DNA from: Owenia fusiformis
Lineage: Eukaryota; Annelida; Polychaeta; Sabellida; Oweniidae
Assembly (NCBI GenBank): GCA_903813345.2
Contig: CAIIXF020000001.1
Span: 25,781,915-25,845,914 of the forward strand
Direction: 5' to 3'
Length of the DNA: 64,000 nucleotides
Of this stretch, positions 10,981 through 60,800 are shown in pieces (within the stretch, counting starts at the first letter, position 1; every line of letters begins with the position of its first letter). A program made the translations under genes and the position numbers. The notes under the pieces are model-generated. The model was given only the letters and a program-made list of their open reading frames with translations. It was not told where the DNA came from and did no database searches.

Positions 10981-12668
10981 TAGGGTGGCTCAAAATAATT
11001 TTTTTTTGGAAATGTTATGCTCCCTACGTGAATCGAGTTGCATTTTGGGGTTAATATCACCTGTGATTTTTTTCAAATTTTTTAGTCAACTTTTAGGGGT
11101 CCCCCACAGCCTTTGAAGTTTGCCCATAGGCTTAACATTAGTGGGCGTCGCCCAAAATCGTACTTTGTTGAAGTTTTCTTCTAGAGTGATTTATATATGT
11201 TGTGTGAAGAAAAACAACATTGTATATGATATTATTAGATGTTTAAATCATCATATTACTCTGTTTCATCATGTGAACTTATATAAAAGGTTATACTTAC
11301 AATATCCTATTAACAAAATATTAGGTACATTCGACCAGTATAATTATTTAAACAAGTACAGTTTTAGAGAATCATGTCTCATATATGATTTGGTATTGTC
11401 ATTATAATGGTTTAAACTGTAAAAGGTATATTCATTCTTGACATTCAATGTTTTAAACATGGTTCAGATCAGATTTTCTTCCTCTATGATCTGAGCGTTC
11501 AGCACATACATTGTCATGATGCGCCGCGTCACAGGTCATTTGAGATATTCCTGCAGATGATACCAGAACTTGAGACCGTGAAGAGGTGCTGTGGTTGTCA
11601 ACGGGGCACTTAAGAAATACCATCCGTAGAGACAGACCACAAATCCCACAAGTTGTGTTATCCTCTGCAGTTGCTGTGGAGTAAGTTGGACAAATAAGTG
11701 GCTGAGCATGAATATCTTCAAGAGGTTGAGACTCTTCCCCATGAACCTGACATGGTGGTAGGCTCCAGGTTGGTCGCAGCTCTTGGCAGTGTAAGACAGA
11801 GCAAGAGAGGAGAAGCAGGAGCTTGCTACAGCACTGCTCAACATCCCATGGCCTGTACAATTTGCAACTGGCAAACCAGGACAGCCTGAATTCAACCCAG
11901 TTGCTGCTTGATTAGGCAATGTTAAACCATCACTAGCAATGTTTGTAACTGAGAGATCTTGGCTCTTATCGTGACAATGTATGTGTTGTGCGCTCAGAGC
12001 AACTTATATTCAAACCCAGAATTTCTGTCAAGACCTGCATTCTGAGAATGATCCAGCTGAACAAGCAGTGAAGCTGGTACAGGAATGCTCTCAAATGACC
12101 TATGACGCGGCGCATCGTGACAATGTATGTGTTGTACGCTCAGATCATAGAGGAAGAGTGTCACATATAAGAAAATCTGATCTGAACCATGTTTAAAACA
12201 TTAAATGTCAAAAATGAAAATACCTTTTACAGTTTAAACCATTATAATGACAATACCAAATCATATATGAGACATGATTCTCTAAAACTGTACTTGTTCA
12301 AATAATTATACTGGTCGAATGTACCTGATATTTTGTAAATAGGATATTGTAAGTATAACCTTATATATAAGTTCACATGATGAAACAGAGTAATATGATG
12401 ATTTAAACATCTAATCATATCATATACAATGTTGTTTTTCTTTAAACAACATAAATAAATCACTCTAGAAGAAAACTTCTACAAAGTACGATTTTGGGCG
12501 ACGCCCACTAATGTTACGCCTATGAGCAAACTTCAAAGGCTATGGGGGACCCCTAAAAGTTGACTAAAAAATTTGAAAAAAATCACAGGTGATATTTACC
12601 TCAAAATGCAACTCGATTCACGTAGGGAGCATAACATTTCCAAAAAAAAATTATTTTGAGCCACCCTA
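10981..12668. mobile_element. Long-TIR DNA transposon (hAT-like), non-autonomous
   Basis: The terminal inverted repeats are about 570 bp (10981-11555 and 12093-12668), starting TAGGGTGGCTCAAAATAA and ending with its complement. The 8-bp sequence ATGGTCAT flanks both sides (10973-10980 and 12669-12676), a clean target duplication. Eight-base duplications with TAGGG/CAGGG ends fit hAT. The interior (11556-12092) carries overlapping minus-strand open frames, including one at 11536-11919, but no catalytic motif I recognise. The arms differ at scattered sites, so the copy is not fresh. Confidence 0.8.
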
Positions 12669-15621: not shown

Positions 15622-16794
15622 TATCAAGATGTAATATTTCATGTTAGTAAGTTGATAGTTCTCAGTACTATACTAATTGGGTCATCTAAATATATGCCAC
15701 TATCTATCAGATTCATGTAAACTGCATCCAGACTTCTATTGTAACTAAAATTAATTGGCTTCACAACAGATTTTAACAAATAAGAGCCATTGTAGAAGCA
15801 AAGTTGCAGTTTGCACACATCTCTATCTACCTATAGCAATTCAAAAACCTAACAAACTGATTCTTTGTTTCACTTAAAAATTTTATTATACAAAATAAGA
15901 GACTACATCTATTCTTATATCAAGTTGATTAATATTTATGATTGATTTGAAATATGTAACATGTTGTCAACATACTAAAATGTATAGTTGGAAATGAATA
16001 TGAAAACAATATAGGTAGTAAGCTAGGACACAAAAATGTTTTTACCAGTGAACAAATTGAAATTACTTGTTTCTTATGTATTTTTATGTGATACTTCAGA
16101 ATTTTTTTGTCTGACGCGCCGTATCCGGGGCGAAAGTTGCCAAAGTGGGGTTTTAGACCCTAATATAGAAAATAACAGGGGGTACTTTATTATCCTTGAA
16201 TAACTTTTTCAGTTGATCCTTAATCATCACAATAACTTTACTGGAAGTTGTTAATATCATTCTTAACTAGTATGCAAAGTTTCAATGATCTGTCATTAAT
16301 GGTTGTCATGGAAACCATGATCTTTGTTGAAAAAGTCCATAATTTTGGTAAAACCTTTACCTCTACATCATACAGAATAGGCATTATTTTTCAACTCAAC
16401 AGATATCAGAACATGTTAGTACTCTAAGAATTATCAGGACAGTTCAGACATTTGTTTAATATAATAGATATTGTTATTCACATCATTGGTATGTGTCACA
16501 GACCATACAATTACATAGGTGATCAAAAGTGGGCGTCGCCCTTATAATAGTAGGTGATTACGTTTCCCTATAAATACAGATTTTAAGTTGACTTGAGATA
16601 CAATTATAATGTACTTCTATTACCATAATCTATATCAAGCAATTCTGGAAGATACGTATAAGTGTTGTAGGTATTACATCATGCTAGGGATGGGGGGAGT
16701 ATATGGGGGGGGGGGGGGGGGTAGAGGTAACCAGCCTTATATAAAACTCATATATAAAGTTTTAGTTTAAAAGTGGGGTTTGCCTTCATTATAA

Positions 16795-17870
16795 CAGGGT
16801 TCATACACCTTTTTAAAATGAAAATCCCTGACATTTCCAGGCAAAAAGGAAAGTCTTGCCCATCCCACTAAAAAGTCTCAAACAACTGTATTATTTAAGA
16901 CAAGACATATTATGAAACATTTTGGGGTTCTCATTTAGTACCATTTTCTCATACCGGTAACTTAGAATTACTTCTAAAAGCCATCTTATTCACCAATTTA
17001 TTCCTGATAGATTACATTTTTAATTTTACAGATTTTACATTGCATAAGGTTAAAGGTAAACATACTTGTACAGGGAGTACCCAGTAAATGTTAAGGGGGT
17101 GAAATTATTTGGGTTTGCATCACTATGAGTGAAGCGAAACCCAAAAGGGAATACTGCGGTTCACCTCCCGGAATTTTTAAAAATTTACATTGTAAATGGT
17201 GCATTCTAAGCATTTCAAACTATAATTTGTCAACTACTGATCATTGTTAACATTATATGATAACAATAACCTGGCATTACTATTGTCTTCTCCCTTTGGG
17301 AAAATCCACACCAAGACATGACACCATATTAGAAATTCCTTATCTAGTAGCGACACTATACGGAATAGTCCTATGATACCAAATAAAATATTCGGTATTT
17401 GTATTATCAGGAATCATGCTTCTTCTGAAAACAGCAACTTTTTGAGTAGCAACAACCTTTTTTCTAGAGCATGTGCCCATCTGCACAATTAATCTGAACC
17501 AAAAATGGTGAAAGTGTCTTTTTGAGCAGAGGCCCTATATGACCAAAGCATCAGTACATAAAGTTTGAACAAAATCTGTGAACTGATATTTGAGTTATTG
17601 CCTTGACAGATGGGCAGATGAATAGACTGATGTAAGACCAGACTGTGGAACAGACAGCTTTGTGGAAACAACTGAATGTTAGAATTTGGATTTCATTGAT
17701 ATCCTGTCATAGCCTAAAATGTATTTTGCTGGAACATTATATTTCAACATTGATACAAAATTCCCTGACATATCTACTGTTTCAAAATTCCCGGACATTT
17801 TTGACCCAATTTTAACATTCCCTGACCTTTCCAGCACCTGGAAATTAAATCAATTTCCCTGACATTTCTA
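16795..17870. mobile_element. Insertion with a hAT-like left end
   Basis: The inner inverted arm is interrupted here: the counterpart near 19560 runs on without it. The segment starts CAGGGTTCATACACC and carries repeated CCCTGACATTTCC motifs near both ends (16830-16860 and 17762-17870). Such subterminal motifs are seen in hAT elements. The expected inverted right terminus is missing, so the copy may be truncated. Confidence 0.4.
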
Positions 17871-18078
17871 TTCTTAATTCTAAATATGGAGTTTAACTTA
17901 TAAGATACAATTATACTGTATATCTGTTACCATAATTCATATCAAGCATTTCTGGAAAACACATATAAGTCTTGAAGTGGGGGGATAGAATGGGTGGGTG
18001 TGGGGGGGGGGCTATGCTAGCCAGCCTTAGGTATAAATCTCATCAACATAATTTTGTGTCTCATAGTCAGTATATTTC

Positions 18079-19240
18079 TTGGCCTTGCATTTTCTTAGCA
18101 TTATATTTTTCCCTTTGGTTAAGTTGCTGCCAAGCCTCTTCTCATCATTTCATACCGAAATATGTGAAGCCCTCCCAGCACTTCACACTTTCACTGGGTG
18201 TAACACTGTAAGTGCCATGGTTCGGAGGGGCAAAGTAACACCTTTCAAAACAATGGCAAAGGTGGAGAATCATACAGACACATTCAAAGGACTAGGACTC
18301 TCAGCAGACATAAATGACGAAACAACCAGTAAAGTAGAAAAGTTTGTATATACCATATACAGGGTGTTTCATATGTATGCACCTTATACATTAAACTCAT
18401 ACATGTAGCATTGCCACCGTATTATGTTATATATCATTTTGTTCCTTATGAAAAGTTAATTAGTACTGAAAAGTTTCAGAATCAAGAGGTGTCCCTGAAA
18501 AAAGATACAATCCAACAAAATATGTGGGTAAGGGGTCATTTATAAGCACTTTTGTAAGGATTTTTATGCCTGTCTGGAGATCTGTTCACTTTGTCTGCTA
18601 CCCAATTATGGCGATAAAGGTGGTCCCATGGTCCCTGAACTCCCTATAAGCCACACCATGAATCCTGTCTATACCTCTTTGTGCATAACTGCCACTGATA
18701 TGTGGACTGAGCTCTGCCATGGTGACAATAGCAAGAAATGTGCAATACGGAAACTAAATTTGTCCTTTAAATTGTCCTCAAAATCACCAGAAATTGCCGT
18801 CTAAATGACCGGTACCCACAATCTAGATTATAACTTTTGTCAGTGACACCCCTGGATTCTGAAACTTTGGAATCTTATGTAACTTTCCATAAGGCACAAA
18901 ATGATATGTAATATGATACGGTGGCAATGCTACATGTATGAGTTTAGAGGGGGGGTGCATACATATGAAACACCCTGAATACTAGTATGGGAAACCTCAA
19001 ATATCCCAAATCCAGATATGTGTTAAGCCAGATATGTGTTATTTAAAGAGAAGTTTAGGCCCCATACTAAAACAATAACTGACAATGAAGGAACAGATAT
19101 TAGTCTACTTCCCCCTTGTTAAGACTCCCCAATGCATCACTTAGCAAGAGCCAACTACCAGGCACTTATCTGGCGTATAGCCCATTTTGAAAAACCTAAT
19201 ATTCCAGGACCCGATGGGCACGGGTGGAAACTTAATGATT
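18079..19240 (+). pseudogene. Relic of an uncharacterised transposon-borne protein with HxFTGC(D/N)T motif
   Basis: Part one (18079-18359) reads ALPALHTFTGCNTVSAM and then a basic RRGKV segment, ending KFVYTIYR. Part two (about 19103-19240) contains ARANYQALIWR and PGPDGHGWKL. I recognise this order (LHAFTGCD-SAF, F-LYG, RANYQA-IWR, P-GHGW) from a protein family common in cnidarian and molluscan mobile DNA, usually annotated as uncharacterised. The GCD motif recalls PIN/FEN-like nucleases, but that link is inference. The frame is broken by in-frame stops and by a 618-bp MITE at 18360-18977, so it is dead. It sits centrally in the 16012-20964 element and may be a remnant of its coding gene. 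Confidence 0.55.
18360..18977. mobile_element. Mariner-type MITE inside the transposon relic
   Basis: The ends are CAGGGTGTTTCATATGTATG and its reverse complement. The imperfect inverted repeats are longer: TACATGTAGCATTGCCACCG also pairs. The left flank is TA and the right flank AA, consistent with a mutated TA duplication. It splits the coding relic, so it is younger than the host element. Confidence 0.65.
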
Positions 19241-21164
19241 CTAAAAAATCTGGAAGTTCAGTAGGTAACAATAGATATTCTACCACAAGAGATTGTTGAT
19301 ATCTTAACACTAGGGGAAGAATCAGAAGATGACCCAGAAGATATACCCTATAAGATCCAAAATTATGTTGATGAGATTTATAACTAATCCTGACTAGCTT
19401 TGCCCCCCCATCCCCACATTCGAACCCCCCTCCCAGCCTGTTGGAATAACATCAAGACTTAAATGTGTTTTCCAGAAATGCTTAATATGAATTAAGGTAA
19501 TAGAAATTCAGTATAATTGTACCTAGTTAAACTCCATATTTATAGAAAATGGTAGTAATCTATTATCATTATGAGGGCAAAGCCCATCTTTGATCACATT
19601 TGTATTGTTAATAGGATAGTTTCTAAATAGCAGAAAAATCAATGAAATCTCGTGCTGCCATCTTTTATTCAGCTTTTAACTCGGGCTAGAGCTCCATTCG
19701 TTTACATGCTAAAATCTTGGAAAAGTGGCTTAATTTCATGATTTATCAAAGTGTGTTTGTTAGATCTGTATAAAACTTGAATGATATACCACATGATGAC
19801 CCTGTTTATGTACATGATGTGATTAAACATGCAAATGTTGATTGACATACAAATAATCCACGGATTTAAAGAATTTTAGCATTGCATCTATGGACATTTG
19901 GCCCAAGTTTTTTCAAATTGTTATAGAAAATTATTCAAATTACATAACTGTGTAAATCAAAGCTATTAAAGGAGAAAACATTTCACTGAATTCAAATATG
20001 CCATTTAAAAGAAGGTAATGTAAGTCATTAGAGGTCTAATATGCAAGTCTCTTAAAATCTCACGAAAAACGAGATTTAGCGAGATTTCAAAAGCTATATG
20101 GAAACTATACTATTGTATGGTCTTTGACACTTTCCAATAATGTAAATTGCAATATCCTATATATTGAGATAAATCAGAGCAAGATCCAAAAGATGTACCA
20201 CATGAAACTAAAACTTTAAATATGAGTTTTATATAAGGCTGGTTACCTCTACCCCCATGTACCCCCACCACATACCCCCCCCCATCCCTAGCATGATGTA
20301 ATACCTATAACACTAATATGTATCTACCAGAATTGCTTGATATAGATTATGGTAATAGAAGTACATTATAATTGTATCTCAAGTCAACTTAAAATCTGTA
20401 TTTAAAGGTAATGGTAATCACCTACTATTATAAGGGCGACGCCCACTTTTGATCACCTATGTAATTGTATGGTCTTTGACACTTACCAATCATGTGAATA
20501 ACAATATCCATTATATTTAAACAAATGTCTGAACTGTCCTGATAATTTTTAGAGTACTAACATGTTCTGATATCTGTTGATTTGAAAAATAATGCATATT
20601 CTGTATGATGTAGAGGTAAAGGTTTTACCTAAATTATGGACTTTTTCAACAAAGATCATGGTTTCCATGACAACCATTAATGGCAGATCATTGAAACTTT
20701 GCATACTAGTTAAGAATGATATTAACAACTTCCAGTAAAGTTATTGTGATGATTAAGGATCAACTGAAAAAGTAATTCAAGGATAATAAAGTACCCCCTG
20801 TTATTTTCTATATTAGGGTCTAAAACCCCACTTTGGCAACTTTCGCCCCGGATACGGCGCGTCAGACAAAAAAATTCTGAAGTATCACATAAAAATACAT
20901 AAGAAACAAGTAATTTCAATTTGTTCACTGGTAAAAACATTTTTGTGTCCTAGCTTACTACCTAATAGTATCTTTTGTAAGTTTTTTCAATTTTTAAGAA
21001 TTTACAGTTTTTTATTTAAAGGGTGCATATCAATATCAAATGCTTAGAAAATGACTTCTGAGAAATATCATCAATTAGATTTAATAATTTCAGATTTTTG
21101 TTTTCTTTACATGGAATGAAAGCCGAGTATCCATTTCAAGTGCTTAAAAATCAATAATAAATAT

Positions 21165-29832: not shown

Positions 29833-30059
29833 TACATTGTACAACGAACCCCATGACTTTTTTGAACCGCATGCAATTTTATTAGTCTAAAAACATTGGC
29901 ATCACTGCACTCACAATTTTAGAACAATCGTTGTTCGCTGCATTAGCAATGTTACGTCCATTGCATCAGTTTGAAAGATTTATCACTTACAACAATATAT
30001 AAACACTAACAAGATGTTTCGATATCAACCTCCTTAAATATATATAACAATTGATTAGA

Positions 30060-30240
30060 ACGGGGATATAAGCTGATAATCTGCAAATGTGTTCATAAAG
30101 GTATGTTTTATATAATTGTGCAATAACAACTGTGCATGTGTCACCATGATTTACAAATACTGAATATCAGGGTGACTGTAAAGAATCACTCAAAGCCGGA
30201 ATATAGAGAAGGCTTTGGACCTAAAGTAAGGCTAGGTAAT
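30060..30240. repeat. Copy 1 of a roughly 175-bp dispersed repeat
   Basis: Shares with 35115-35295 the blocks CATAAAGGTATRTTTYATAT, ACTGTGCRTGTGWCAC, ATGATTTACAA and ACTCAAAGCCGGAATATAGA, the last continuing into GAAGGCTTTGGACC. AAAGCC and GGCTTT could pair as a small stem. Function unknown. Confidence 0.55.
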
Positions 30241-30301
30241 AGTATATAACTAGGCCAAATCCAGTCCCCATTGGATGTAGGCTCAATGAAGTACTTTACT
30301 C

Positions 30302-30883
30302 AAATCACTTATTCTGGTGACCAGTTCATATGGTTAAAATTAGTGTTGTCGCGATGTGCCATCATCGTACATCGAGAAAAAGTCCACTGAAATACCGAAC
30401 GCCAATGCACTAAAATACCGAATAGAACAAATTAATAAGAGTATGCTGGTACATCCGGGAACTTCTAGTAACGGTAAAATGAAAGTAAAGTAATTTTTAG
30501 ATTAATGGTTCACTTCGACTAACTAAAACAGTTTTAAAGCGAAAGAATATCAGAAAACATTGGAAAATGAAATAAGACATGAGAAAGGTAAGCGATTTGT
30601 GTCAAAATAAGATAAGGGAAAATTTTTAGCAAATTAAATTTTTTTTAAAAACAGACATCGATGCATCGCCAGAATCAGCTTAGGCGATGTATATCGCGAT
30701 GTATCGATTAATCGCGACAACACTAGTTAAAATAACGAAATGATCTAATGTTAACATGTGTCTACTTACCAGTTTGTTCTATGTCATCCGACTATGTAAC
30801 TGGTAAGTAGACACATGGTAACATCACATCATTTCGTTATTTTAACCATATGAACTGGTCACCAGAATAAGTGATTTGACGCT
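30302..30883. repeat. Foldback repeat interrupted by a hAT MITE
   Basis: The left arm (30302-30340 plus 30726-30777) and right arm (about 30797-30880) are inverted copies. They share CAAATCACTTATTCTGGTGA, CCAGTTCATATGG, ATAACGAAATGAT and AAGTAGACACATG-type segments. The loop between them is about 20 bp. The left arm is split by the MITE at 30341-30725. Confidence 0.75.
30341..30725. mobile_element. hAT MITE, 385 bp, 8-bp target duplication
   Basis: The ends TAGTGTTGTCGCGAT and ATCGCGACAACACTA are exact inverted repeats, with GATGTATCGATTAATCG-like subterminal sequence. GTTAAAAT flanks it at 30333-30340 and 30726-30733. The unoccupied site (single GTTAAAAT in inverted orientation) is preserved in the other palindrome arm near 30838-30850. 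This makes the insertion unambiguous. Confidence 0.9.
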
Positions 30884-30914
30884 AAGACAAGAAGCGTAGG
30901 AGATGGTCTTGGGA

Positions 30915-32415
30915 CTTACTCACTTCGAGAGCCATGTTTGATTTTGAAACTTATGGCTCTCAAACGGGGAAGTGAACAGCTGATTAAAAGTGACCTTTGA
31001 AATCGAATTAAGTCGATCCGCGGCTTACTTTTGGTCCATTACTGTGTCTTACATCAGTATCATCAATCCGTGTAAGTATTGGAGCGCTGAAGTACTTCCT
31101 TTTCGATCAAGACTTGTAATTGTTAGTTGAGTGAATGTTTTTACTGCTAAATTCCAATATGGCGTTTTCTGCTCGGACATTTTTGTAAATCTCTGGAGGT
31201 TGTCCGAACCTAACTAATTCTCAAAATTAATTTCGTTCGTTCCGTATCTCGCTCCTAGCAAACCGCCATATTGGAAATAGGTCTAAAAAACATTCACTCG
31301 ATGAACAATTTACAAGTCTTGATCAAAAAAGAACTATTTCAGCGCTCTAATACTTACACGGATTGATGATACTGATGTAAGACACAGTTAGATCTAGAGA
31401 CCAAAAGTAAGCCGCGGATCGACTTCATTTGATTTCAAAGGTCACAATCATTCAGCTGTCCAAATGCTCCGTGGGAAAGCTACTATATCAAAATCCAAAT
31501 AGCTTTCGCAGGAAGTAACTTGGGACTAGATAAGAAGCAGCCTAGGGTTAGATAACTGGACCAGAAAGGTTTGGAGTTACTTCCTGCGAAAGCTATTTGG
31601 ATTTTGATATAATAGCTTTCCCACGGAGCATTTGGACAGCTCAATGATCGTGACCTTTGAAATCGAATTAAGTCGATCCGTGGCTTACTTTTGGTCTCTA
31701 ACTGTGTCTTACATCAGTATCATCAATCCGTGTAAGTATTGGAGCGCTGGAGTACTTCTTTTTCGATCAAGACTTGTAATTGTTAGTCGAGTGAATCGTT
31801 TTACTGCCAAATTCCAATATGGCAGTTTCTGCTCGGACATTTTCGTAAATCTCCGGAGGTTGTCCGAACCTAACTAATTCTCAAAATTCATTTCGTTCGT
31901 TGCGTATCTCGCACCTAGCAAACAGCCATATTGGAAATAGGTCTAAAAAACTTTCACTCGATGAACAATTTACAAGTCTTGATCGATAAAGAAGTACTCC
32001 AGCGCTCCAATACAGTTGGGGACAAAAATAAATGACAGGTCGATTTTCGATCACCATTTCCTAATTATGGTGGTCTGAAAGCCCATAATTTCCAATATTG
32101 TCTAGATATATATCCCTTAAAATTTGTATATTTTACATTTTGTATAATCTCATCCACTGATGTATGGCCTCTTGTAAATTCTCTTATTTTTAACATGGGA
32201 AATCCTCACTTCAGCAAATCCACCTGTCATTTATTTATGTCCCCAACTGTACTTACACGGATTGGTGATACTGATGTAAGACACAGTTAGAGACCAAAAG
32301 TAAGCCGCGGATCGACTTAATTCGATTTCAAAGGTCACTATTGATCAGCTGTTCACTTCTCCGTTTGAGAGCCATACGTTTCAAAATCTAACATGGCTCT
32401 CGAAGTGAGTAAGTT
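30915..32415. repeat. Nested palindrome complex, about 1.5 kb
   Basis: Outer arms 30915-30985 and 32340-32415 (ACTCACTTCGAGAGCCATG and its inverse) enclose two units of about 460 bp, 30990-31444 and 31650-32335. Each unit is itself an inverted repeat about an ATTCTCAAAATTAATTTCG-type centre. The two units are inverted across a further palindrome centred near 31540, with arms 31450-31510 and 31570-31640 carrying CGCAGGAAGTAACTT or its inverse. Read outward, the order is P-L-L'-C-C'-R-R'-P'. Identity between copies is high. No coding frame is seen. Confidence 0.8.
32013..32249. mobile_element. Tc1/mariner-type MITE, 237 bp, TA target
   Basis: The ends CAGTTGGGGACAAAAATAAA and the inverse TTTATTTATGTCCCCAACTG lie between TA dinucleotides (32011-32012 and 32250-32251). 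The homologous uninterrupted site with a single TA is present at about 31352-31358 in the sister unit, proving the insertion point. There is no transposase inside. Confidence 0.9.
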
Positions 32416-33240
32416 TGGAGGATTTGGTGACCTACTTTTATTTAGCCTAGGCCTACATCTCTGTACACTAGGCATATGCACTAGCCTAGGCTAGTATAGA
32501 AATCTAGCTCGACATGAGTAAATATATAAAGACGTTTTTATTCATAATTTCAATATCTATCGTAAATGAAAAAATAAAGGAACAGATTGATGAGAAATTC
32601 TTGAAATTTTTATTATTTTTCTTGGCGATGTTCGGCATGAAAGTTCCCCGTTTATTTTCAAAAAACTTACCTCAAGAAGACGTTTCTGAAATGCCTGATT
32701 ACATCTGCAATCTTGCTGCATACACAATATGTTCAGATCTTATATAATATCGTTGATATCTTGAAAATATGTGAGCAAGTACTATCAATTTTGTCCAAGA
32801 TGGCGTCACTCTGTGTTCCCGCTCAAGAAAATGTTCGAAAATGGCCGATTCACGTAAAAATAATTACGCACGGAATCAAGTACTATGAATGAAAACTTGA
32901 TATCGTTGCATAAGCAGGTATCATATGCCAATTATTTTTGAAGTTAATGGTGAAATAATATAATGCCCTGATATTTAATGTATAAAAGTATACAGATCGC
33001 TTCAACGTGAATCTATATGTTGACCTAGATATGTGTAACAGCGGATTGATATTTTGCAATCAAAACACAAACCAAACACATTTATTGATTAGCTCCAATT
33101 TCTCTCTATTTCTTTGTAAAAACGCCTAAAATTTGTTGAAGATGCATTGAATTATGATACTTATGAATCAAGTAATAATAAACGAACTGCGAAATTGATC
33201 ATATTGCAGGATATCACAAGAAATTGGCGTCTGAACAGCA
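32416..33240. other. Intergenic upstream of the Bfr1-like gene
   Basis: Contains a YY1-like AAGATGGCG site at about 32798 and a 77-codon open frame at 32514-32747 with no recognisable homology. A CCTAGGC-rich imperfect palindrome lies at 32440-32500. No exon was recognised. Confidence 0.4.
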
Positions 33241-33407: not shown

Positions 33408-36400
33408 ATGGCTAGTGCTGAAGAAAGCACTGAGGGAGAAGAAAAAGCTGTTGATAAAGAGGCGGTTGCTGCAGGTAAGTTTGTAAACATGTGTCCTGAT
33501 GAATCACAACTTTTGGCGAGAAATCATTTCTGGAATTTATTGTTTCATCATCAGTTTAGAATCAATGATTCAGTTAGGAGTCTTTCTAACTGAGCCCTGG
33601 ATTTGTGCATTTATTCATCCATATTAGCTCTACTTCACTTGCATGTTTCTCTCAATTTTTATATCACAACTTTCTGTTTTTTGCTTTTCTGCCACTGGAT
33701 TTCCAGTAGATGTCTAAGTTCAATAAGAATTTATGGTAGTTTACTGTAATTGACCCAACTTGTTTCCATTCTGTTGGTTTGAGTGACCACAACATTGTAG
33801 GTGAACATCTATAGTTCCAAAGACCCTCTGATTATTGCAATCTGTGAACCCTTCCCAAGGCATTTGATAAGGGTCACGTAGGGCCGTGCCATTCGACCGG
33901 AATCGGTCCGAACCGCGGACTTTTGTTAAAATACCGGAATTCGGAATTTTAATATCATGTTCCGAAGGGTTTCGGAACAATATCGGACCCTTACCTTAGT
34001 ACTTGCTTTGAATCGTTAATATCCGTGACCATTGTTCCTCCAGTGATGTTTTCCTTCAAACTACATCCAATTTGCATGTGTATTACTCGCATAAACAAAA
34101 TAAATAGCGGAGAAATCAACAGAAATCAAGTTTTGTTTTACGAACTTTGACCTTCGGATTTCATTGGAAGTAGGAATCGACGGGGCGAAAATACTCATAG
34201 ATAAATGAATAAATTTACTTTTCCATGACGTCTTACAATCTAACAGCGTTAATTAATTACATTTTAACTCTTACAATATATATATGCCGCCATTTTGTTC
34301 ACTTTAACATTTGAATCGTTAATTTTGGTCTTACTTTCAAACGAAAAAGCAGTTTGAATTCAAATTTTGTAATCAAGACATCAAGAACATCGAGAGAGCA
34401 TCGATGTTGCATTCTGGGACCCAATCCTCCTTGGGTTTCACAGTTTTTCAATTTCGTTGATTTCGTTTCAAAACTTTTTCAATTACGCATGCGCATTATG
34501 GTCAGAGCAGCCGGAAGTGAAAACAAGTAGAAAAAAGATCGAATTTTCTCTCTTTTTACAGATTTTAGAGTCTATTTCTTTCGTAAAAACATTCAAACTT
34601 GCTTGACAGGAAAGGTAAGTGTTAACCTGACAAACTTGGACGACGATATCGTCATGATCGCCGTCGAACTCACTCATACATAATTATTTTCATTTGTGAA
34701 CCAAAAGGGGTTCCGAAAGTTCCGATTCCGTGAGACCAAGTTCCGGTTCCGATTCCGAACCGTCCGAACCGGTTCCGGCACAGCCCTATTTAAAGGGTGT
34801 GTCTTACTCGAGTCTCTAGCTTACAGCTAGATGTAACTTCATTGATTTCGTATGTAATCGTATTTCGTATGTAAAAATGCTACACGCACCTAGAAATCAT
34901 TTTTAATAAATTTTATAAATATATTTAAGAATATTAATTATATTTAGGATGAAGCATTGCATGTCTGGATTTAGATATTTCAAAATTTCTTTTCGGAGTT
35001 CGACAGATGGTGAAATTTACTCGCTGTAGCTAAAAATGGCTTCCGGTTCCGAACGTGAATAAATGGAGGAAACTTTGAAATTATTCTCGCTAAAAGAAAT
35101 CAAATATAACAATAGATTCAGACGGAGATGTGTGCTGATGTTTCTCAAATCTATACATAAAGGTATATTTCATATTATTATGCCGTATTTACTGTGCGTG
35201 TGACACAATGATTTACAATATTTACAATACCAAGGCAGCTCAATCTTTCGACTCAAAGCCGGAATATAGAGAAGGCTTTGGACCGAAGTAAGGTGTGTCC
35301 ATCTTACAAGAATATCTCAGAGTAATAGACATATTTTCTTGCTGAGAAAATTGCCATTGATATCTGTTATAAATTGGGAAATGTTTTGGCTGTGTGCATT
35401 GCAACTCCAAAATCTACGTTAAATTCAATTTTGAAAGCTTCTTTGCAATCGTCCAATGATCTCTATGATTTCCAAGAAAACCATTTTGACCTCCCCATTG
35501 TAAAATCAACATTTTTCTCTTAGCTCAAAATTTTAATTCCGGGTTAATGACTTAAAGAAGTTCCGTAATTAATGGCTTCCTAATTTGAGTCTCATGTTAA
35601 TTATTTTCAGGTACACATAATTACTCATTCTATACATGGTCTAAGACATTCAGTTCGGCACTAAGAGTGTGTATAAATAGCATTAATAAACATTTTACTT
35701 AAAATTAAAAAGGAGAAAATTCAGTGACCTACATTTTTTCCCTTTTGAAAAATAGGTCACTGAGATTTTCTTTATTTTCATACATTGAAGAAAAATATTC
35801 ACCCTCTCATGATGTAGATTGTAGATACATAAATGTACTTTTTGTGCAAAACTGAAAGATGTACGTGTAAACCATGTATGGAATGAAGGTGCATTAATGA
35901 CACCTTTATACCCTACCCTTTCGCGCCTTTTGAAAATACAACAGGAATTCAGAAAAGGTATTTTTTCAACCAATTATTTCTTATCGATCAGTGTAATTAA
36001 TTATTTTGTGACTATCCAGAAAATTATTAATTTTGTCATACAGTTGTGAAATTAACACCTGTAGAATAAGAGTTGTCAATTGGTATATAGATAAATTAAA
36101 ATCACACATCCATTTGTAAAAAATGAAGGAATACCAAAATTTTCCCCACTCACTAATAATGCTCATGTTTAACTGTTTGATTAATTATCCCATCGAACAA
36201 AGTTCGGAGGGCTATAACTCAAATACCGTTGGCCAGATTTTGTTCATATTTTGTACACATATACCCTATGGGGGTAGAAGTTCTGCTTTAAAGCCGATGG
36301 TTTAAAAATGGCGGCCATTTTAGTGCCGATTTCACAGTAATTTAGGTGCAATATGTAAAACTGTAATAGCTATATGTTTTAAATGTAAAAAAATTATATA

Positions 36401-39400
36401 GGACATTAGTAAAGCTAGAAATGTAGATATTAAAGAAGCACATGGCAGCCATCTTGAAAAATGGGGGCCTTTACTCGTTATTTTACGATTTTTGCTGTAA
36501 CTCGAAAAGTAGTGGAGCGCACATCATATAATCTTAAGAATTTGGTAAAGATTTCACGTTTCAAATAACTTTTAAAGAGGCATTTTGTTCTCAGGATCAA
36601 AAAATTGATATTTTATACATGTATTATTCAACATCAAGGTTTTACAAGGCTTTTAAGCATATTTATTAAAATAAGTTATAAATAAATAAGTATCATCAGT
36701 TTGTGAAAATCTTTCTTTGCCCATGTTTCAAACCTGAGCTCGTTAGGGTTGGTGTCAGAACCAAATTGAAAAAAATTGTTGACATTTTGCCATCTTAATA
36801 CATGTACTATGTGTAAGTTTTATTCATGATATGTTTTACCTCCAAACCAAAGGAATGAGAAGTGAAAATCAACCCACTAGTGGTCTGCAATGTGGCATCT
36901 ATACAAGTCTTCAAATACGTTGGTTTTATTTCAGAATTCCGCCGTATGAAAGCTCCCAACAAGAAACGACTAGAGGATGATATAGAGGTACTGATGACCC
37001 AAATAAAGGAGAAAGAAAGTCAACTTGTATCCTTTTTAAGTGTTTGGTTTCATTTTTAATCTCTGGTTTTGGAAAACAATTGCTGCATGAAGTGTAATGA
37101 AGAAACAATGAAATAAAGATAATTGAGATAAAGTTCGAAAACATTGAGGTATTTTATCTATAATATTTACAAACTCTTTTACAGAGCAAATTCCAATTCC
37201 TGTTTTTAATTTTTTTTATATTTATTTTATAACTTAAGTTGTTTGGTGGATTTATTCTCATATTAGGCTTAATAACACTTGCATGAAGTAACCAAAGGGC
37301 TTGGAATAGATAATGCCAAAAGGAGGAACAAATACTGACTGATTATTTTCATCATGAGGGAGAATTTGATAAAATGTATGCTGTTTGGTGTGACTCCATG
37401 GCATTCCTGTTGTTCTTTTTGGATATTATTATTGATTAAAGAAATCATTCTAACTGAGTCACATCTCCTTAACCCAAGAACCACAGAAAGCTAACAACAG
37501 CAAATCAGACGAAAGAAATCAGGAAGAAGGCCGTAATATACGCGCTGAAAAGGAGGCCAATAATGAAAGGCGAAAGAAGAAAGATGCCGAATTACGACAA
37601 CTTGGAGTCACCATTAGATCACAGGTAAGTACAGTAAGCCAGTATGTACAGATCTATTTTCTTGAACAAAATAAAGTGTGAAGACATGCATATATTTTCT
37701 TGGCTTTTTTCTGGAGTTTGCTATTAAATTCCCTCGAAACATCATGGCATTAAGGCTCAGCTGGAAAGTAACATTTGGGTAAAAAATTGCTATACCTGCA
37801 CATGTTATTTTCTGGTACAAAATAAAGTCTGGAGGCATGTATGTATTTCCTTGCTTTTTTCAGGAAAGTATCATTACACTGACCTACTTTTAGTAAACCT
37901 GGAAACCAGGTCAATGGTAGCTCCTGTGTTGTCTGGAAACTTTGAAAGAAAATTTGGAAAAATAGAAAGTGTGAAATATCAGAATTTCCTGGAGTTCCCA
38001 TTGAACTCCTACCAGAATGATACTTTCCTGAAAAAAGCAAGAAAATTGACACATGCCTTCATACTTTATTTTGTACCAGAAAATAACATGTGCAGGTATA
38101 GCAATTTTTTACCAAAATGTTATTTTCCAGCTGTACCTGGATACATCAAAGATAATCTCTTTGTTTTGTTTTCTAGCTGGACTCTCTGGCTAAAGTGCAG
38201 GCTCAGTTGACATACAAAAGAGAAGACCGTATCAATGAGGCAATACGCAGACTGGAATACCAACTGAAAAACCAGAATTTCTCACTGAGGGAAGAAAAGA
38301 AGATTGTCAGTGAAATAGATAGTCTTAAGCGCTCAAAGAAGGCTTTGGTGTAAGAGCTATATATTTATATGCATTTATTGTTGTTCTTTAACATTTCAGC
38401 AATCAAAATTATTATATCATCCAAAATGTCAAACAGGAATAAGTGATTTTGAATTTTTTATTTCCATTTTTTCAGCCATAACAAACTTTTATCTCTGTCA
38501 GACAAGAGCTCTCTCTCTTTCTTTCGTTTGGAAAAATTCGGGAATGTATGGAAAGTTATGAATGCATTGTTGATATTGTAACTTATTCTGATGGTATTTA
38601 ATCTGGGATCCATCTTCCCCCTCTATTAACCCTTCTGATGATGCATCAAGACTGAATAACCGAAGTACAACAGCAATTTTTCAATAGAGATCCAACAAAG
38701 GATTTAATGTATATATTATTGTACATTTCAGTCAGTACACTGCTATGAAGAGAGAGTTGGATTCTCTGAGGGACAAGCAGAGAAGAATCAGGGAAGAGAT
38801 AGGGGTAAGATAATTAATTAATTATGTATCTCGTGTGTAGTGGGCATACATGTACATGTATATGCAAAACTATGATATGATAGGAAGTTCCCTTGAACTT
38901 AAATATTCATTAGTTTTAGTCAATCAATTTTCATATTACCCTTACAAATGAACATGTCCTGTATAAGGTCTATGGGGATTCTACCCGGCATAGAAGTCAC
39001 CTTTTCAAAGAAAGTTAAAATCTCAAAGTTGATAAACAATTTTTGAAACGTTATTTCTAGATGCAATTTTACATATTTTTTCACTTTGACTGAATTCTGA
39101 ATATTTAATGCTGCAACTTAAGATTATTTCTACTTGCATCTAGTCCATTAATTATCACTTGACTAGCTTTTTATTTCATTTCAGCACTACAGCAAAGCAG
39201 TGACGGGGCTGAAGAACAGGGAGGGGGCTATTAGGAACTCATTTAAAGCAATGCGAGAGCACAATGAGCAACTCAGGAAAGGTAACAATCCAACTTAAAG
39301 TATTTACCTTAATAGATTGTAAAATGGCAAAGTTAAAGGGCACATCTTTTTGATAAAGTAACAGCTTAAAAAGTTCATGATGTCAGAGAAATGTAATTTT

Positions 39401-48819: not shown

Positions 48820-51800
48820 CTATGTTTGTGTTATTATTGGTATAGATGTTTGGAGCTTTTGCAAGGTACCTAGCGAATCTTTTGTAAGGTTCACAATAGA
48901 CCTAAAATGCAAAAAACAAATTGTTTAATCATTCCTTTAAGTCAATACATTTGAAATCTAAACTCAATAAAATTGTGCTAAAATTCAACAGAGGCTAGAA
49001 TCAAAGGGTGGTTGATTAGCTATTGGTTATCATTATTATCATTGGTCATTTTTGAAGGCTAATATTGTTTGATACATTGACCAACTAACCTGAACAATTT
49101 TAACTTCTCTATGCTTTCTTCAAATTCAATAGCTTTCTTTTGTCCTCGTAGAATAATCTGAAAAAATAAAACAACAATTAAATGGGGATTCTTTGATTAA
49201 ATTCATGTTCAATATTTTCTTACACTTTGAACAAATGAAAAACAAGATTTATCGTGACTTGCCCAGATTTCCAGATGCCCATCAGCATAAGAAATTGTAA
49301 AGCTATAAGCAATTTACTTTTGGGCATCCATAACATCATTGCATTGATCATTTTAAAGCCAAAATTCATTTGTGATTCGAACTTTACCTCATTGGGTAGA
49401 TCTGCCAGTCTGGCTGCATTAAAGCCATAACTCTTAGGACAAGCGCCACCTATAAACTTGTAGAGGAAGGTGATGGTCTCCTGACTTGGGTCATTCTCAT
49501 CTTCATTCTCCACCATACACGCCTGGAAAACAGACTTCATGTTCATTAAATATACACATTACAAGAGCAGTATTGATTTTTTTTTAAATGTTAATGAACC
49601 TGTCCATGTATAGCTCACACTAAAACCCCATGTCCTGTCACCATGCTCATCACTACCGGTGTAAAAGATGAAGAAATTGTTTCAACTTACCATGTGCCCT
49701 GTCCTGACATTGGGGTCATGTGAGAACTCCTCCACCAGAGAGTGGTAGTGGGTGCTGAACAATGTGCGACATTTAACATTCTGAGAAAGTTCCTGCACCA
49801 CTGCACATGCTATTGCTGTACCATCATATGTTGCTGTGCCTCGACCAAGTTCATCCATCAGAACCAGGCTATGTGGAGTTACATGCTGCAGGATGGCCGA
49901 TGTTTCACTCAGTTCCACGAAAAATGTACTTTCACCTGCAAAGCATAAGTTTAAGTTCAATACAAATACAAGACATTTAAACAATGTATGTATGTATCTT
50001 TTATTCCCGATTTCAAATCGGATTTCATATAAACTAATTACATTGTTAGATTAATACAATAAACATAAAACATAAACAAGGTCACAACATATTTACAATC
50101 TTTAAAAGTAATATAAAAATTTCAGATTACAAGGTCTAGATCTTCTGCAAGTTTATGCAAATAAGGGTACGAGACTAATCCCTGAGTCTGATATCACTAT
50201 ATGAATGTATCTCAGGATGAGCTCTAAGTTATGTATCTCAAATGACTCCGAGGCAGGACGCAACGTCAATAATGAGTTTATTCCTCATGTGATTGTACTT
50301 ATTACAGTCGATTAGCATGTGATTTATGGCATCCTTATAGAAATTGCCACATCTATTGCAAAGAAGGTTGGAGTCATTGACGGGCATGGCTAAAACTTTG
50401 ACTGCTGTGAGAATATACGGAAGTAGATAATTCCGTTTTCTGGCTAAGTTCCAAAGATTATGGGCTCTCAAAACAGAAATGGAAATTCTGATGTCATTGC
50501 GTTGAGATTCACTTTGAACTAGGAAGCGTTGTCTGACTACATATTTGCAAATGCGTTTCCACAAGATATTATTTGGAAAATAACCGTTATCTAGATATTG
50601 AATCAGGTATTGTTCCAATTCGTAGGTTTTCAGAATGTTTGAAATGTCGGCGACAAATCCTGCCTGCCGGTGATTTCCGCCGTAAAGCAAATTTGCTCTA
50701 AACAGAAAGATGTCCTTTGTCAACGTCAGCTGTTGCATGTTGCAAAGCAGACCAAGAAACGACAGCTTTCGTAGGTCAAGAGTGAACTGGACTGGTAACT
50801 GGACTGGTTTTTGTAGTACACTTTGATAATGCAGAACAGTAAAAATAGCAGGTCCTGGTAAAATGATAATTTGATATGAACTGTTCATTTGTTTAAAAAT
50901 CCCATAAATTCAAGTAATGTGTGAAGAGTACACTAAATAAAATGTACTTACCTGACATAATCCGATCACTGGCACCCAGGCGCGTGAACACTCGATCTAC
51001 AGGGGTCAGCTTACACTTCTCAGCAGGCACATAGCATCCCTACAACATAATTTATCAGAATATTTTAACTTAGAACCAGAACAACGGCAACGCCAAAGCG
51101 TAGCGAATCCCATCGAACAGAAATGGCTGGCATTTTTACAAACAAAATATATAGCAAATATCATAAAATAACACACATAAGAAAGGCCACCATTTTCAAA
51201 ATGGTTGCTCACTAGCCAAGTTGTCATCAGAAGAAGTAATATGCTTTTAAGTAGCCACATATGAAATTTTTAAAAATCGCACACACGTACATGTAAATGG
51301 TGGCCATTTTTATAAAATGGCCGCCTTCTACCCAAAATGTCATAAGACAGTATGCAATCCTTACGAGTATTCACATTTCAAATATAAACAAAATCGCTCT
51401 ATAACTTCTTGAGTTATCATAAAAAATGTAAATTAACACACATAAAAATGGTGGCCATTTTTCAAAATTGCCGACTACTCCCCAAAGTTTTATTAGACAA
51501 CGTGCCATGCTTAAAGTATTCACAAATCAAATATGAACAAAATTGCTCCAATACTTTTCGAGTTATAATAAAAAATGAAAAATGACAGCCATTTTTTTAA
51601 AATGGCCGCCTACTACCCAAAATGTCATTAGACATTGTGCCATGCTTAAAGTATTCACATACAAAATATGAACAAAATCGCTACACTTCTTTTTGAGTAC
51701 AGTAAAAAATGTTAAACACACGTAAAAATGGCGGCCATTTTTCAAAATGGCCGCATACTACCCAAATTTTATTAGACATTGTGCCATGCTTAAAGTATTC

Positions 51801-54800: not shown

Positions 54801-57800
54801 AATCATACATGCATGTTTTCCAGTTTCTGATTGATCAATCACTATGGTAACAACCATTTACCAAAGTAATCACTTTTCATTACAAAAGGTTGAAGCATTC
54901 AAGAGGGCAACTTACTTAAATGATGTGTTGTGACTCTTAAATTTCTCCATAATATCACAAGCCACCTTGAAGCCAGTTAATGCAGACACAAAATCCTCAA
55001 TCTTACGCTTGCTGGAACAAAATAAAAGTAACAGGATTTAAGATCTTTAAATGTTCCATAAATATCAAACATTGATGTGTGAAAATTACAGTACTCTAAC
55101 ACGATGATTAGATGTTTCTCATACATGTAGTTATAGTTTAATGTACAAAGGGTAGTGACGAGAATAACATATACCTGTAAGTGACATCTTCATACATGAT
55201 GGCCCTGGCATCTGGATGGTCTTTGGAACGCTTGAGGGAACCCAGTGTATGGATCCTAGGGCACATAGAGCAACATTTATATGTATATTATACAGACAGG
55301 CCAATACAGAGTTTAAGAAGCCTAAAGCCAATTTTGAAAGAATTTAGGCAGTTGTTCCTATTCTAGATGTTGCTTGAGCTTACATCATTATTATCAACTA
55401 CATTATCAAAGGGAGCCCAATTATTAATTCAACATTAATGAAACACAAAATATGTACCGGGTGTCCCAAAAAATTGTACTCAAATGAAACAGATGCAAGA
55501 GGATTAACTCATCGAAAAAAGCTGAACTTCGCACATGATAAAGAGAATTCATTTTCTCCGATTAACAGTCAAAAATTCATAGAATTTTTTAGTCCCAAGT
55601 ACAATTTTGAGACACCCTGTATCTCAAACACACAAGGTCAATGTGGCATCTTACTTGCTGAGTAATCGCTCCAGATCAGGCAGTTTCTTAAGGCTGTCTG
55701 TGACATCAGCTGTCACATCTGAGACACCCCATAAATCTTCTACTGCATCCAGTCTATCATTAATCCCTTCCGGGTTACACAGGGGGGCACATAGCCATTG
55801 CTGGAACAGCCTCTTGCCTAAAATGATCATCATTACTATGATTAAATAAATTTAATAACCAACTGGGGAATTGATTTCTAAATTGAATAATTAATTTGAA
55901 AAATGCAATAAATCAAATTTTTTCTGATTTACAGCAATCCAAATATTTAGAAATCCCGTCTTTTGAGAACCATTATTTGAGCCAGGCCACGGGAAAAGGG
56001 GTTTTATCACAGATTTTTTCAATGTTTTGATTTTTTGTTTTTCTTAAAAAGCACAAAGAGACCTTTCAAATGAGCCATGGCTTGTGTCTTAACAATTTTT
56101 CCTTGCAGGTATAGACCAAAAAGACTGTTTGAATTTTGCACATTTTCCTCTTAATCTTGGGCACATTTTTGACTCTGTAGCACAATTTAAATTTTTGTGA
56201 TAAGACCGGTTTTCCTATGGCGAGGCTCATTTGTTTGTGTGTCGCATGGTAGCAGTTCAGAGTACTTGTAAAACTGACATTTATAACTAACACATGTCAT
56301 TTCCTTCATATGAAATGAAAACAGAGAAAGAATGTTACGTCATTGGAGGAGAAGTTCTCCAAGCAATGGTCAAGCACTGCACTAAACTTAATTTCCTTTT
56401 CTAATCAATAAACTTTAAGGTGATTCTAACCAAATGGTGTAACGCAATGGTCCAGCCTCTGAAGTAGAGTCCCCTCTTGGTTGCCTCTTGTGTCCATAAC
56501 ATCCAGATTACTAAGGGTAATACCATCAAGCACCTGAAACAAATTTATTTTTTATTTAGTTTTTAGTGAGTTTAATACCCAGTGAGTTTAGTACCCAGCA
56601 GCCAGATCGCAATAGAATCAAGCAATAACCTACACTGTACTTGTCTTTTTAAATATACACTCTTTACCAACAACTATTCCACTTGAATCTACAAACCCCA
56701 TGGTACTTTCATTTGAACTTATGTACAATACAGAGCATGAATATTCAACTTTTATTTTTCTTCCATGAAAATGATAGTGTGACATAATTCAATGGTTTAT
56801 TATAGACTTTAACATGGAAACAGATTCCTGACATACATACCATTTTTTGTTTGTTTGTGAATTTCTTTTTCTCTACAGGCTTGCTCACTGCATTAGGCCC
56901 ACTATCCACTGGTATATATTGTGTAAAGTTCTTCATGGAGAGCACAGCATGGTCCATGAGACAATGCTGGAGATACCTAGAACACATAAAAGTCCACTTT
57001 AAAATATCATTTGTAAGGCCCTCAATAAAAGTTTGAACATGCTTTGCTTTAAAGCTTTTATTGTACCTTACTAGTTAGAACTGTCCAACTAACTACATTT
57101 ATTTTTAAATCCCTTGAATCTGAATTATACCAAATTCTGAACCGCAGTTAAAATAATCAACAAGAAAGAAAAAACTTGTACATGTAGTGTTATATTAATT
57201 ATTTCTATGTTTATTCACAAACCAGAAGAAATGACCATAAATATAAATGTTCCTCTTACCAAGTGATTGCACCAAGACTGCGTATTGCAAGGTCATATTC
57301 AGCAGAAGCAGTTTGCCCAAGAGAGTCAGCTGAAAAAAAAATCAAGAATTATAATATATACAGGGTGGGCCAAAAAAACGCCACTTTTTTTTTCAAAATG
57401 CTTTAACTTTTTTAATTTTTGATACAAAATCATAATTCACATACCAAATGAAACTTGAGGTTGTTATCTAGCCATTGGTCATGAATTATACACTTTTACT
57501 TGAATGAGATATGTCACCAGCGTCTCACTTAAACATGTGGTGTGCCATGAGAAATAAGCATAATTTGCATAATGTTCCTAAACTGATACGCCCTGATGAC
57601 CACAAGCTAATAGCCTTAATTCAAACCCAAGTGAGTATAGGGCATGGGGAGGTCTCCAGGAGATGGTATGAAGGCACCCGATCTAAAAAATTGCTTAACT
57701 AAAGCTGGCAATTAAGACACATTGAAAATAATATAGCTAACATTTCATTGATACTGCTATATCAGCGAGGCGACTAAAACTAAAATCTATCATCAAATGG

Positions 57801-60800
57801 GGTGGCGGACCAATTGAACTCCTCTTTTTAGATCAAATATAATCCCATTTGAAGGACTCGTTACATTATATTATTACTAAGAACCCTTGGCACTATATAA
57901 CTGCAAAATTTGGGGTATGTAGGTTGGAAAATAAAAAAGTTATAGTGTCTTGAAAAAAAAGTGGCGTTTTTTTGGCCCACCCTGTACATACAGGGTGATA
58001 AATTGCAATCCTTTCACTTTTGGGACACCCTGTACTAAAACATGTACACTGACCTCACCATTAGCTAAAGAAGATTAGTTTTACCTTCTGAGATCATAAA
58101 TTAAAGAAAATAAGTTTTACCTTCTGAGATCATATTCTTGAGAGTTTCTGGCCATGAAAACTCCCTAGTTTTGTCATCCTTGAAGAATTCCCCCTCACTG
58201 AGATATTTCAATGTCTTAGTAGAATCCCAAAATTGTGAGTTTGAATTCAATGTCTCCCTGGGTACACCTGTGAGACAACTGTTAAACACCTGTTGGACCT
58301 TACTTGACACCTCTCCTCTCTCGATCAGCAACTATAATAAACATGCATACACCTTTAGTACAGCATTTAGTCTATCTGCAACTACTGTAATCAAAAACAC
58401 ATCTTTGCACATGTTACCAGAATCACATTAATAAGATCATATACATTGTTCATGGCCTACACTAGGTCACTTAAATCTAAATTGGTGAAATTTACATTTG
58501 GTATAGATGAGCGATTTTGATCACATGACCACTGCCATTTGAGGAGTGCTGCAATGAAGAACAGTTGACAATCTAAATGTGTTAATAGCAAATAGAGTGG
58601 AATGAGTCAATAGTTGTTAGTGATGACAGAGAGAAATAAGTGCAATGACCACATTGACAAGCTTAGTAGTGTATGCATACATGTGCAGGTACTACAGGTA
58701 TACACAGGCCCGTAGCCAGGGGAGAGGGATGAGGTGCAAGCGACCGCCCCCCCCCCAGCCAAAAATTCTTCCAACTACATGCAGTTTTCACCAATCTAAT
58801 CACTTTTCAAGTCATTTTCAGGTAAAAATGGTCAAATGTGAAATCCTTCCTCAGGATTTTTTCAAAAAGTGAACCCCCTTGGAAAAAGTTGGCTATGGGC
58901 CTGATACATGTAGTATATTGTGCAGAAGTACATTATTGTACCTCTGTTGGTGTGTGATGTGCCAGGATGGTCCTCAGTCTGGAGCAATGTCTGTCATCCT
59001 CAAACTGTCCAACATGGAACCTACCCACAGTTGTATCCACAAAACATACTCCAAACACACTGGTCTCTCCAGCAAGCCCACTCTGTGTCTACAAAATACA
59101 AAAAAATACAAATTAGATAAAAGAATCATTAAGTATTTTCATATTCATGAAATGGGCAGAAGTACCATTTTTATAGAGTTAATAAATTCTAGAAGTCTGC
59201 ATAAATGAACATATGTAATAGTTAAGCAACACTTTAAATAATGATATACTAGAAATCAACCAAAACCCCAAAAAGTCCTAGTTCTCAACTGTGTTACAGT
59301 ATAACATGGGTTTTTGTAACTTAACAAGAAATATTCTGATACCTTTTCACAAATAGCCATGAGATAGGCATTGTCAGCATTAGAGGCATCCCCATCAAGG
59401 AAGCTGTATGTCTTAGTGCCTGGTGTAGTTACCGCACAAACCTCTCTTTTTACAACCTTGTCAAACTTTGTAATTTTTCGAGTACCTACAGTTAGATAAA
59501 GTAATGATGATCCGAATACAAGTTGTACAATGTATTAACAATTTGGAATATATGAGGTGTACATATTTGCAAAGAATACTTTTCAAAATTTAAAACAACA
59601 TTTCTGAACATCAACAACGATCATATTTCTGTGCCGAACTGTATGAATGCCACCTAGAACTTGCATGATTAACTTATTGATCTCAGACACTCACTATTTT
59701 TGCAGCGTTCATTCATCATATCTGGATTCTCCGTCTGTTCCACCCTGGCGACTTTGTACCCTTTTTGAACCAATGTCTCAGAGTAGCGACCATAAGCAAT
59801 CTCAGGAAACCCAGAATGGGCATATGCTCCCTAAAGATTAAGATTTAGTGAACATTCTTAAAGGGTCAAGTCAAAGTAGTATCAATGTCCATCAAACAAA
59901 GTTATCTTATTTATAACTTAAGCCCCCTCGTTTTTTTAATGAAACCTTTAAATCTGCGATATCACAACAAAGCAATGGTGAAACCTACGAAATGATCTAT
60001 GGTCCCTACCCCTTAAAACAAGAAATGACAGCATTTGCCCTTTGAATATCAAAATTATATTGTAGGCTGAAAATCTTTAATATTTTGTTTCATGAATGAA
60101 ATCAGTTGAGTTGTTATAAAAGTTTACTCGTGGTGCACAAGATATTAGAAAATTGAGGGGAAAGTAATAGCTTATAGAAAAATAACAATCCAGACCATTA
60201 CGTTCTACTCCATGTATTATGTAGACCTATGTATAATGCAGTATATGAATCAAATTAAATCTTACCTTCATGTAGATAAGGCCAAGTTCATTGACTCCAG
60301 TAACAGCATCCATGTGGTAGAGCTCGTAGAATTTGCCCACTTTAAAGAACAGCACCGTGTCAAAGAGCTTTGCCTTGATGTCCCACCATTGTCTGTGGCC
60401 CTACACAAAAGTACACATATATACAGAGTAATGCAAATCACCAATAACCCAATGCCCAAAATGTGTATTGTACAGTCAAACCTGTGTAGGTGGAACACCC
60501 TTTGTTCTGCCAAAAAGTGTTCCACTTACAAGGTGTTCCATTTGTGGTTTCAAGTGGATTGTACGTGCCTTTTAACATAATACAGTTATCTATCTATCTA
60601 TCTATCTTGGCGAGTCATGCTCCTTGTAAATAAGGATACATCATACATAGCCTGGTTTTGGATAATTAAACTTTATCATAATCCCTATTTGTGAAGTCAG
60701 AATGGGTCTGCATTTTCACAACAATGATATATCTTCTACATGCTACCTCCCCCTTAGATCAATACCTAGCCCCTGAACCTTTGTCATGTGTCTTTAGAAA

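Follow-up and report, generated by a model that had tools for sequence, protein, structure and literature searches.

The palindromic region at 30302-32415 lies upstream of RAD21 in a 64-kb stretch of DNA that was analysed as a whole (hereafter, the window). RAD21, which was located by tblastn and by the Pfam family Rad21_Rec8_N, is encoded on the minus strand, and the start of its N-terminal coding exon at 28762 is about 1.5 kb from the first foldback of the region. The similarity of RAD21 points to an animal as the host. An earlier note had placed the region in the shared upstream region of two divergent genes. Only the RAD21 half of this placement was recovered; none of the three plus-strand frames that may belong to the candidate Bfr1-like gene (0/3) gave a Pfam match at E 0.01 or better. 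Elsewhere in the window, a MutS domain V fragment at 49682-50047 on the minus strand indicates a MutS-homologue gene on that strand. The longest stop-to-stop frame overlapping 30302-32415 was 89 aa, indicating that the region has no transposase coding capacity, as is the case for short non-autonomous DNA transposons (MITEs).

Self-comparison of the window sequence showed inverted repeats throughout the region. The simple foldback described at about 30302-30883 was found with its outermost arms at 30300-30340 and 30839-30879 (100% over 41 nt) and with inner arms at 30726-30774 and 30798-30846 (94% over 49 nt). Next to it, a 1.5-kb complex has outer arms at 30914-31078 and 32250-32414 (95%, 165 nt), a central palindrome at 31395-31520 and 31575-31700 (95%), and two internally palindromic units at 30973-31272 and 31633-31932, which match each other at 92% in direct orientation. 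No inverted-repeat match was obtained in five first-order Markov windows of equal length with the same BLAST settings, indicating that these repeats are above chance.

Five insertions and their target-site duplications

As judged from the sequence, the region is almost certainly made up of five MITE insertions, adjoining or nested, and not of one multi-level palindrome. Terminal inverted repeats (TIRs) were found in all five elements, designated A, B, D, U1, and U2, those of B being short ends only.

A palindromic element of 0.6 kb is present in two copies, U1 and U2, which stand 58 bp apart in opposite end-orientation. U1 (30916-31518, plus strand) is 603 bp in length, with end A on the left and end B on the right (TTACTCACTTCGAGAGC and TTACTTCCTGCGAAAGC, respectively), and is flanked by the target-site duplication (TSD) CTTGGGAC at 30908-30915 and 31519-31526. 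U2 (31577-32412, minus strand) is 836 bp in length, or 597 bp without D and one TA, and has end B on the left and end A on the right; its TSD is GTTTGGAG at 31569-31576 and 32413-32420, all four TSD copies being given on the plus strand. The gap between the two elements consists of 16 bp of inner TSD copies and 42 bp of host DNA (31527-31568, unstranded), the latter forming the centre of the third palindrome. U1 and U2 differ by approximately 4-9% in corresponding parts, their ends being 93-96% and their cores 91-95% identical. No further copy of U was seen within the window, and U may be a dispersed family, as suggested by these two copies in one window.

Element A (30300-30879) is a palindromic MITE of approximately 187 bp when B and one TSD copy are left out, with the ends TCAAATCACTTATTCTGG. 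No TSD of A was found; the one match in the automatic scan was of 4 bp and did not lie at the ends, and the printed flanks also gave none. Element B (30341-30725), a 385-bp element with the ends TAGTGTTGTCGCG, stands in the left arm of A between two copies of the 8-bp TSD GTTAAAAT (30333-30340 and 30726-30733), and its uninterrupted target site is supplied by the right arm of A. The TIRs of hAT elements start with a YAGNG-like motif, which the TAGTG start of B fits; with the 8-bp TSD, this start suggests that B is a hAT-like MITE. Element D (32013-32249) is a 237-bp MITE inside U2 with the ends CAGTTGGGGACA, inverted arms at 32011-32046 and 32216-32251 (94%), and the TSD TA at 32011-32012 and 32250-32251. 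We take D to be Tc1/mariner-like from its CAGT-type TIR motif together with the TA duplication. In U1 the site of D is empty, AATA being directly followed by CTTACAC. A, B, and D are given without strand. The palindromic hosts serve as their own controls, because the D site is empty in U1, as is the B site in the right arm of A.

TSDs were therefore present for four of the five insertions, namely perfect 8-bp repeats for U1, U2, and B, which stand exactly at the symmetrical ends of these elements, and TA for D. The background rate of 8/8 matches in this window was 201 in 3,617,418 sampled cases at spacings of 300-1500. All three 8-bp TSDs fit the pattern nTnnnnAn, for which 0.106 is expected each by base composition; this pattern is the TSD consensus of Hermes in the part of the source consulted (PMC2803484). 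The automatic TSD scan, which tried many shifts and whose 4-5 bp matches carry no meaning, permitted 9 bp (CTTGGGACT) for U1 alone, and U2 stayed at 8. We read 8 bp in both cases, because 8 bp with TTACT ends fits both U1 and U2 and 9 bp does not fit U2.

The history of the cluster is best explained as follows. A is a palindromic MITE into which the hAT-like B was inserted later. U1 and U2 belong to one MITE family and arrived by separate insertions, with opposite end-orientations and target sites that were originally about 50 bp from each other, each insertion making an 8-bp duplication. A transposase encoded elsewhere would have cut and pasted each element by its ends. The Tc1/mariner-like D was inserted into U2 later, at a TA.

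Read by the ends and TSDs of the elements, the outer arms of the complex are the A-type outer ends of U1 and U2, their B-type inner ends, facing each other across the host DNA, make up the third palindrome, and the units are the bodies of the two elements. At the smallest level of symmetry, all four U ends have a subterminal hairpin, and the first foldback is the separate element A, its left arm interrupted by B. The multi-level symmetry described in the earlier note is real as to its inverted repeats, but they form no single hierarchy, each level being the footprint of a separate insertion. The units that had been called mirrored are mirrored at their ends, whereas U1 and U2 agree in the direction of their loops and inner arms. 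Reading the TSDs thus decodes an impressive multi-level palindrome into ordinary insertions, and at this locus it would guard against wrongly claiming a super-palindrome of regulatory or artefactual nature.

With 95% complementarity over 165 nt between the outer arms, and with the 4 bp TTGG common to their outer flanks, 30914-32414 could be taken for one composite transposon that was bounded by these arms and moved as a unit. However, the outer 8-bp flanks differ (CTTGGGAC versus GTTTGGAG), each half has its own matching 8-bp TSD, and the arms are merely the A ends of two U copies; we consider such a unit extremely improbable. The earlier note had allowed for one ordinary composite transposon as an outcome against its own account, and ordinary transposons are indeed what the sequence points to, though as several separate elements instead of a single composite.

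Erroneous inverted duplications are common in assemblies, and an artefact of this sort, or the recent inverted duplication of a single unit, could also bring two similar halves face to face. The halves differ by approximately 4-9%, D is present in only one of them, their loops are not mirrored, and their TSDs differ. None of these four features would result from a false or simple duplication, so that this explanation was rejected as having virtually no probability. The independent TSDs, together with the divergence between U1 and U2, count against all three alternatives, whether composite transposon, assembly artefact, or simple inverted duplication.

Orientation of the U1 and U2 cores

The core, which consists of the inner arms and the loop, extends over 31115-31314 in U1 and 31775-31974 in U2 (both on the plus strand, and hence in the same direction; the limits are approximate and were set by hand from alignment columns). 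The four arms of U1 and U2 were aligned with MAFFT with D left out, and 47 two-by-two informative gap-free sites were obtained across them. In columns 6-71, all 23 informative sites pair end A with end A and end B with end B. This pairing, for which some A/B sites within columns 33-57 depend on the register of the alignment, indicates that U1 and U2 are in opposite orientation. On the loop side, in columns 217-306, all 23 sites group the two left arms together and the two right arms together, indicating that the cores are in the same orientation. The one site left, at column 181, groups by element. The two classes of sites do not overlap, and the log10 probability of such a split under random order is approximately -12.6, a figure that takes the sites as independent, which is not fully true.

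Between the two classes lies a middle zone (columns 76-205) with 92-98% identity in all six arm comparisons, and the left and right arms of U are alike to this degree over approximately 125 bp. The left and right inner arms are 64-68% identical. The A and B ends are 59-62% identical, which is probably a slight underestimate, because MAFFT shifted the right-hand halves of the end hairpins by one base between the A and B ends; the like-with-like end identity of 93-96% is independent of this register. The aligned arms of this single pair of copies show that the core of one copy is inverted relative to its ends. The cluster of nested MITEs is real but ordinary, with the inverted core as its one curious feature.

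An exchange within the middle zone that joined the left and right arms of a single copy would have inverted the core, and such recombination within one copy probably caused the observed arrangement. Crossover between U1 and U2 is disfavoured, because the two TSD copies of each element match and crossover would split these pairs. Chimeric copies of Galileo have been described with non-matching 7-bp flanks in the section of the report available to us (PMC3573991). Alternatively, two pre-existing subfamilies, A-core-B and A-inverted core-B, may stand side by side, with no local recombination having occurred. This variant concerns the core only and is compatible with separate insertions of U1 and U2; it is also consistent with the divergence between them, and the inversion may predate both insertions. 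One inversion in the family is nevertheless still needed, most simply via the arm zone of 92-98% identity, and we give the two subfamilies slightly less than an even chance. Recombination between the arms of one copy also bears on the high arm identity, which had earlier been ascribed to recent origin or gene conversion. The divergence of approximately 4-9% between U1 and U2 does not point to a very recent origin, whereas exchange between arms within an element is supported in the middle zone.

Subterminal hairpins of the U ends

Each U end has a subterminal hairpin (all unstranded): at 30927-30961 in end A of U1 (GAGAGCCAT...ATGGCTCTC), at 31475-31507 in end B of U1 (GAAAGCTAT...GTAGCTTTC), at 31588-31620 in end B of U2 (GAAAGCTAT...ATAGCTTTC), and at 32367-32401 in end A of U2. 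The A ends have the hairpin sequence given for U1, and the B ends can be summarized as GAAAGCTAT...(A/G)TAGCTTTC. Between the A and B hairpins, two of the nine pairs differ by changes in both partners and all nine remain paired, with a T-G pair in one B end. The pairs were counted by script, because MAFFT misregistered the right halves of the hairpins. By a rough count, two changes per arm at matching positions with matching bases have a chance of about 1 in 324, a figure that is an after-the-fact inference from two end types. Among 914 non-overlapping 70-mers taken from the window, 22 had a perfect 9-bp inverted repeat of the same kind, as did 94 of the 20,000 shuffled versions of end A, so that the hairpin alone is only moderately unusual.

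Template switching has been proposed to create and keep matched hairpins, according to the part of the source consulted (PMC8794818), and a palindromic transposase site is an alternative to it for the end hairpins. A more far-reaching explanation would be that U is an invertible foldback transposon, of which the core of approximately 200 bp flips recurrently via the homogenised zone of 125 bp, while the ends keep their 9-bp co-changing hairpin, as though recognition, or repair by templated switching, acted on the folded end itself. We regard this explanation as unlikely. In a partial search of the literature on loop or spacer inversion, covering titles and the beginnings of abstracts, we recognised no report of a MITE with a flipped core. 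The core inversion and the paired hairpin changes provide a small lead on how long inverted arms recombine and stay matched.

Predicted folding

The RNA of U1 was predicted to fold with a minimum free energy of -323.5 kcal/mol, compared with a mean of -133.7 for 10 base shuffles, and that of U2 without D with -364.6, compared with a shuffle mean of -134.9. The formation of double-stranded RNA or cruciforms, which had been suggested for this DNA, is possible in principle, given this strong predicted folding. We take this potential to be a by-product, and its use by the neighbouring genes is only hypothetical. The very strong predicted folding of U1 and the position upstream of RAD21 would also suit a functional palindrome that is the source of a long hairpin RNA, or a regulatory element common to RAD21 and the neighbour gene. 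However, Rfam gave nothing in the window at gathering scores, and the structure is explained by the ends of mobile elements; we hold a functional palindrome to be very improbable.

Other repeats in the window and searches for relatives

The palindromic locus is not isolated, since the window has several further foldbacks. One of them (10981-12668, approximately 1.69 kb) has arms that are about 94% identical and the ends TAGGGTGGCTCA; an 8-bp TSD, ATGGTCAT, was read by eye from its printed flanks and also fits nTnnnnAn. An element of 4.95 kb at 16012-20964 has arms of approximately 760 bp at 96% identity and the ends TAGGTAGTAAGC, and further foldbacks at 17881-19542 and 18356-18981 lie inside it, as does an open frame at 18067-18405, for which no Pfam match was found. 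The foldbacks at 18356-18981 and 57355-57990 both have CAGGGTG in their ends and possibly belong to related families. Among the other repeats, a dispersed one has two copies in the same orientation, at 30042-30231 and 35104-35293, one on each side of the cluster (192 aligned columns at 75.5% identity), and another repeat occurs at 36210-36519, 51.8-52.2 kb, and 62.4-62.8 kb with matches of 87-93%. GGAC-type microsatellites stand beside the last two of these copies, and tandem arrays were found at 51.3-51.9 kb.

The 1.5-kb block gave no match to phages by blastn. Exact-pattern scans for U gave 0 and 0 matches in genome contigs and 1 and 0 in viral contigs, and one exact pattern each for the B ends and the D ends gave 0 in viral contigs. 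The single viral match (L001) was treated as chance: it has 22 nt exact, or 36 columns at 86%, in common with the arms, and its E value of 2e-4 was obtained for a contig preselected by the same pattern. The 11 inverted-repeat pairs listed for L001 are 20-26 nt long at 73-88%, and several span the matching site; none of them is like the U arms. The absence of relatives says little, because the collections scanned are prokaryotic or viral.

Comparison with known systems

The U ends begin with TTACT and do not have the YAGNG-like start of hAT elements. Because of this start and the long arms, U was not filed as hAT. An affiliation with Mutator-like elements is possible on the sequence features, as is one with P-related elements.

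The comparisons with published systems draw on excerpts of the cited reports. Nesting of the kind seen here has a counterpart in the DcSto elements of carrot, where MITEs lie in and beside each other and the TSDs of nested elements are marked (PMC3695323); those elements belong to other families and to a plant host, unlike this cluster. DNA elements, MITEs among them, are over-represented in bivalves when compared with LINEs (PMC10294476).

The hAT MITEs Mar and Vege of Drosophila resemble U in being approximately 0.6-0.9 kb in length and non-coding and in having 8-bp TSDs (PMC3517528). The TIRs of hAT elements are given as 5-27 bp (PMC3517528), whereas U has arms of approximately 250 bp with diverged zones and the TTACT start. 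In addition, the TSDs of Mar follow the Buster consensus nnnTAnnn (PMC3517528), in contrast to the nTnnnnAn of U1, U2, and B.

Foldback/Galileo elements are similar to U in their long inverted arms, copying between arms, and inverted inner segments (PMC3573991). As described in the same excerpt, however, Galileo has 7-bp TSDs and internally repetitive TIRs, whereas the TSDs of U are 8 bp long, and Tandem Repeats Finder at a score of 50 listed no array between 29815 and 39877.

The Mutator/Foldback Tm1 family, with its MITE-like members, has long TIRs, TSDs of 8-10 bp, asymmetric end motifs, and an example of nesting in common with U (PMC3169594). According to that source, the TIRs of Tm1 consist for the most part of tandem repeats of 13-15 bp, and its TSDs are mostly 9 bp (45 of 53 elements). 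No such tandem repeats were found in U, and the TSDs of U fit 8 bp. Nevertheless, the arms of approximately 250 bp and the 8-bp TSDs of U are compatible with the Mutator-like range of long TIRs and TSDs of 8-10 bp given in the part of that report consulted (PMC3169594).
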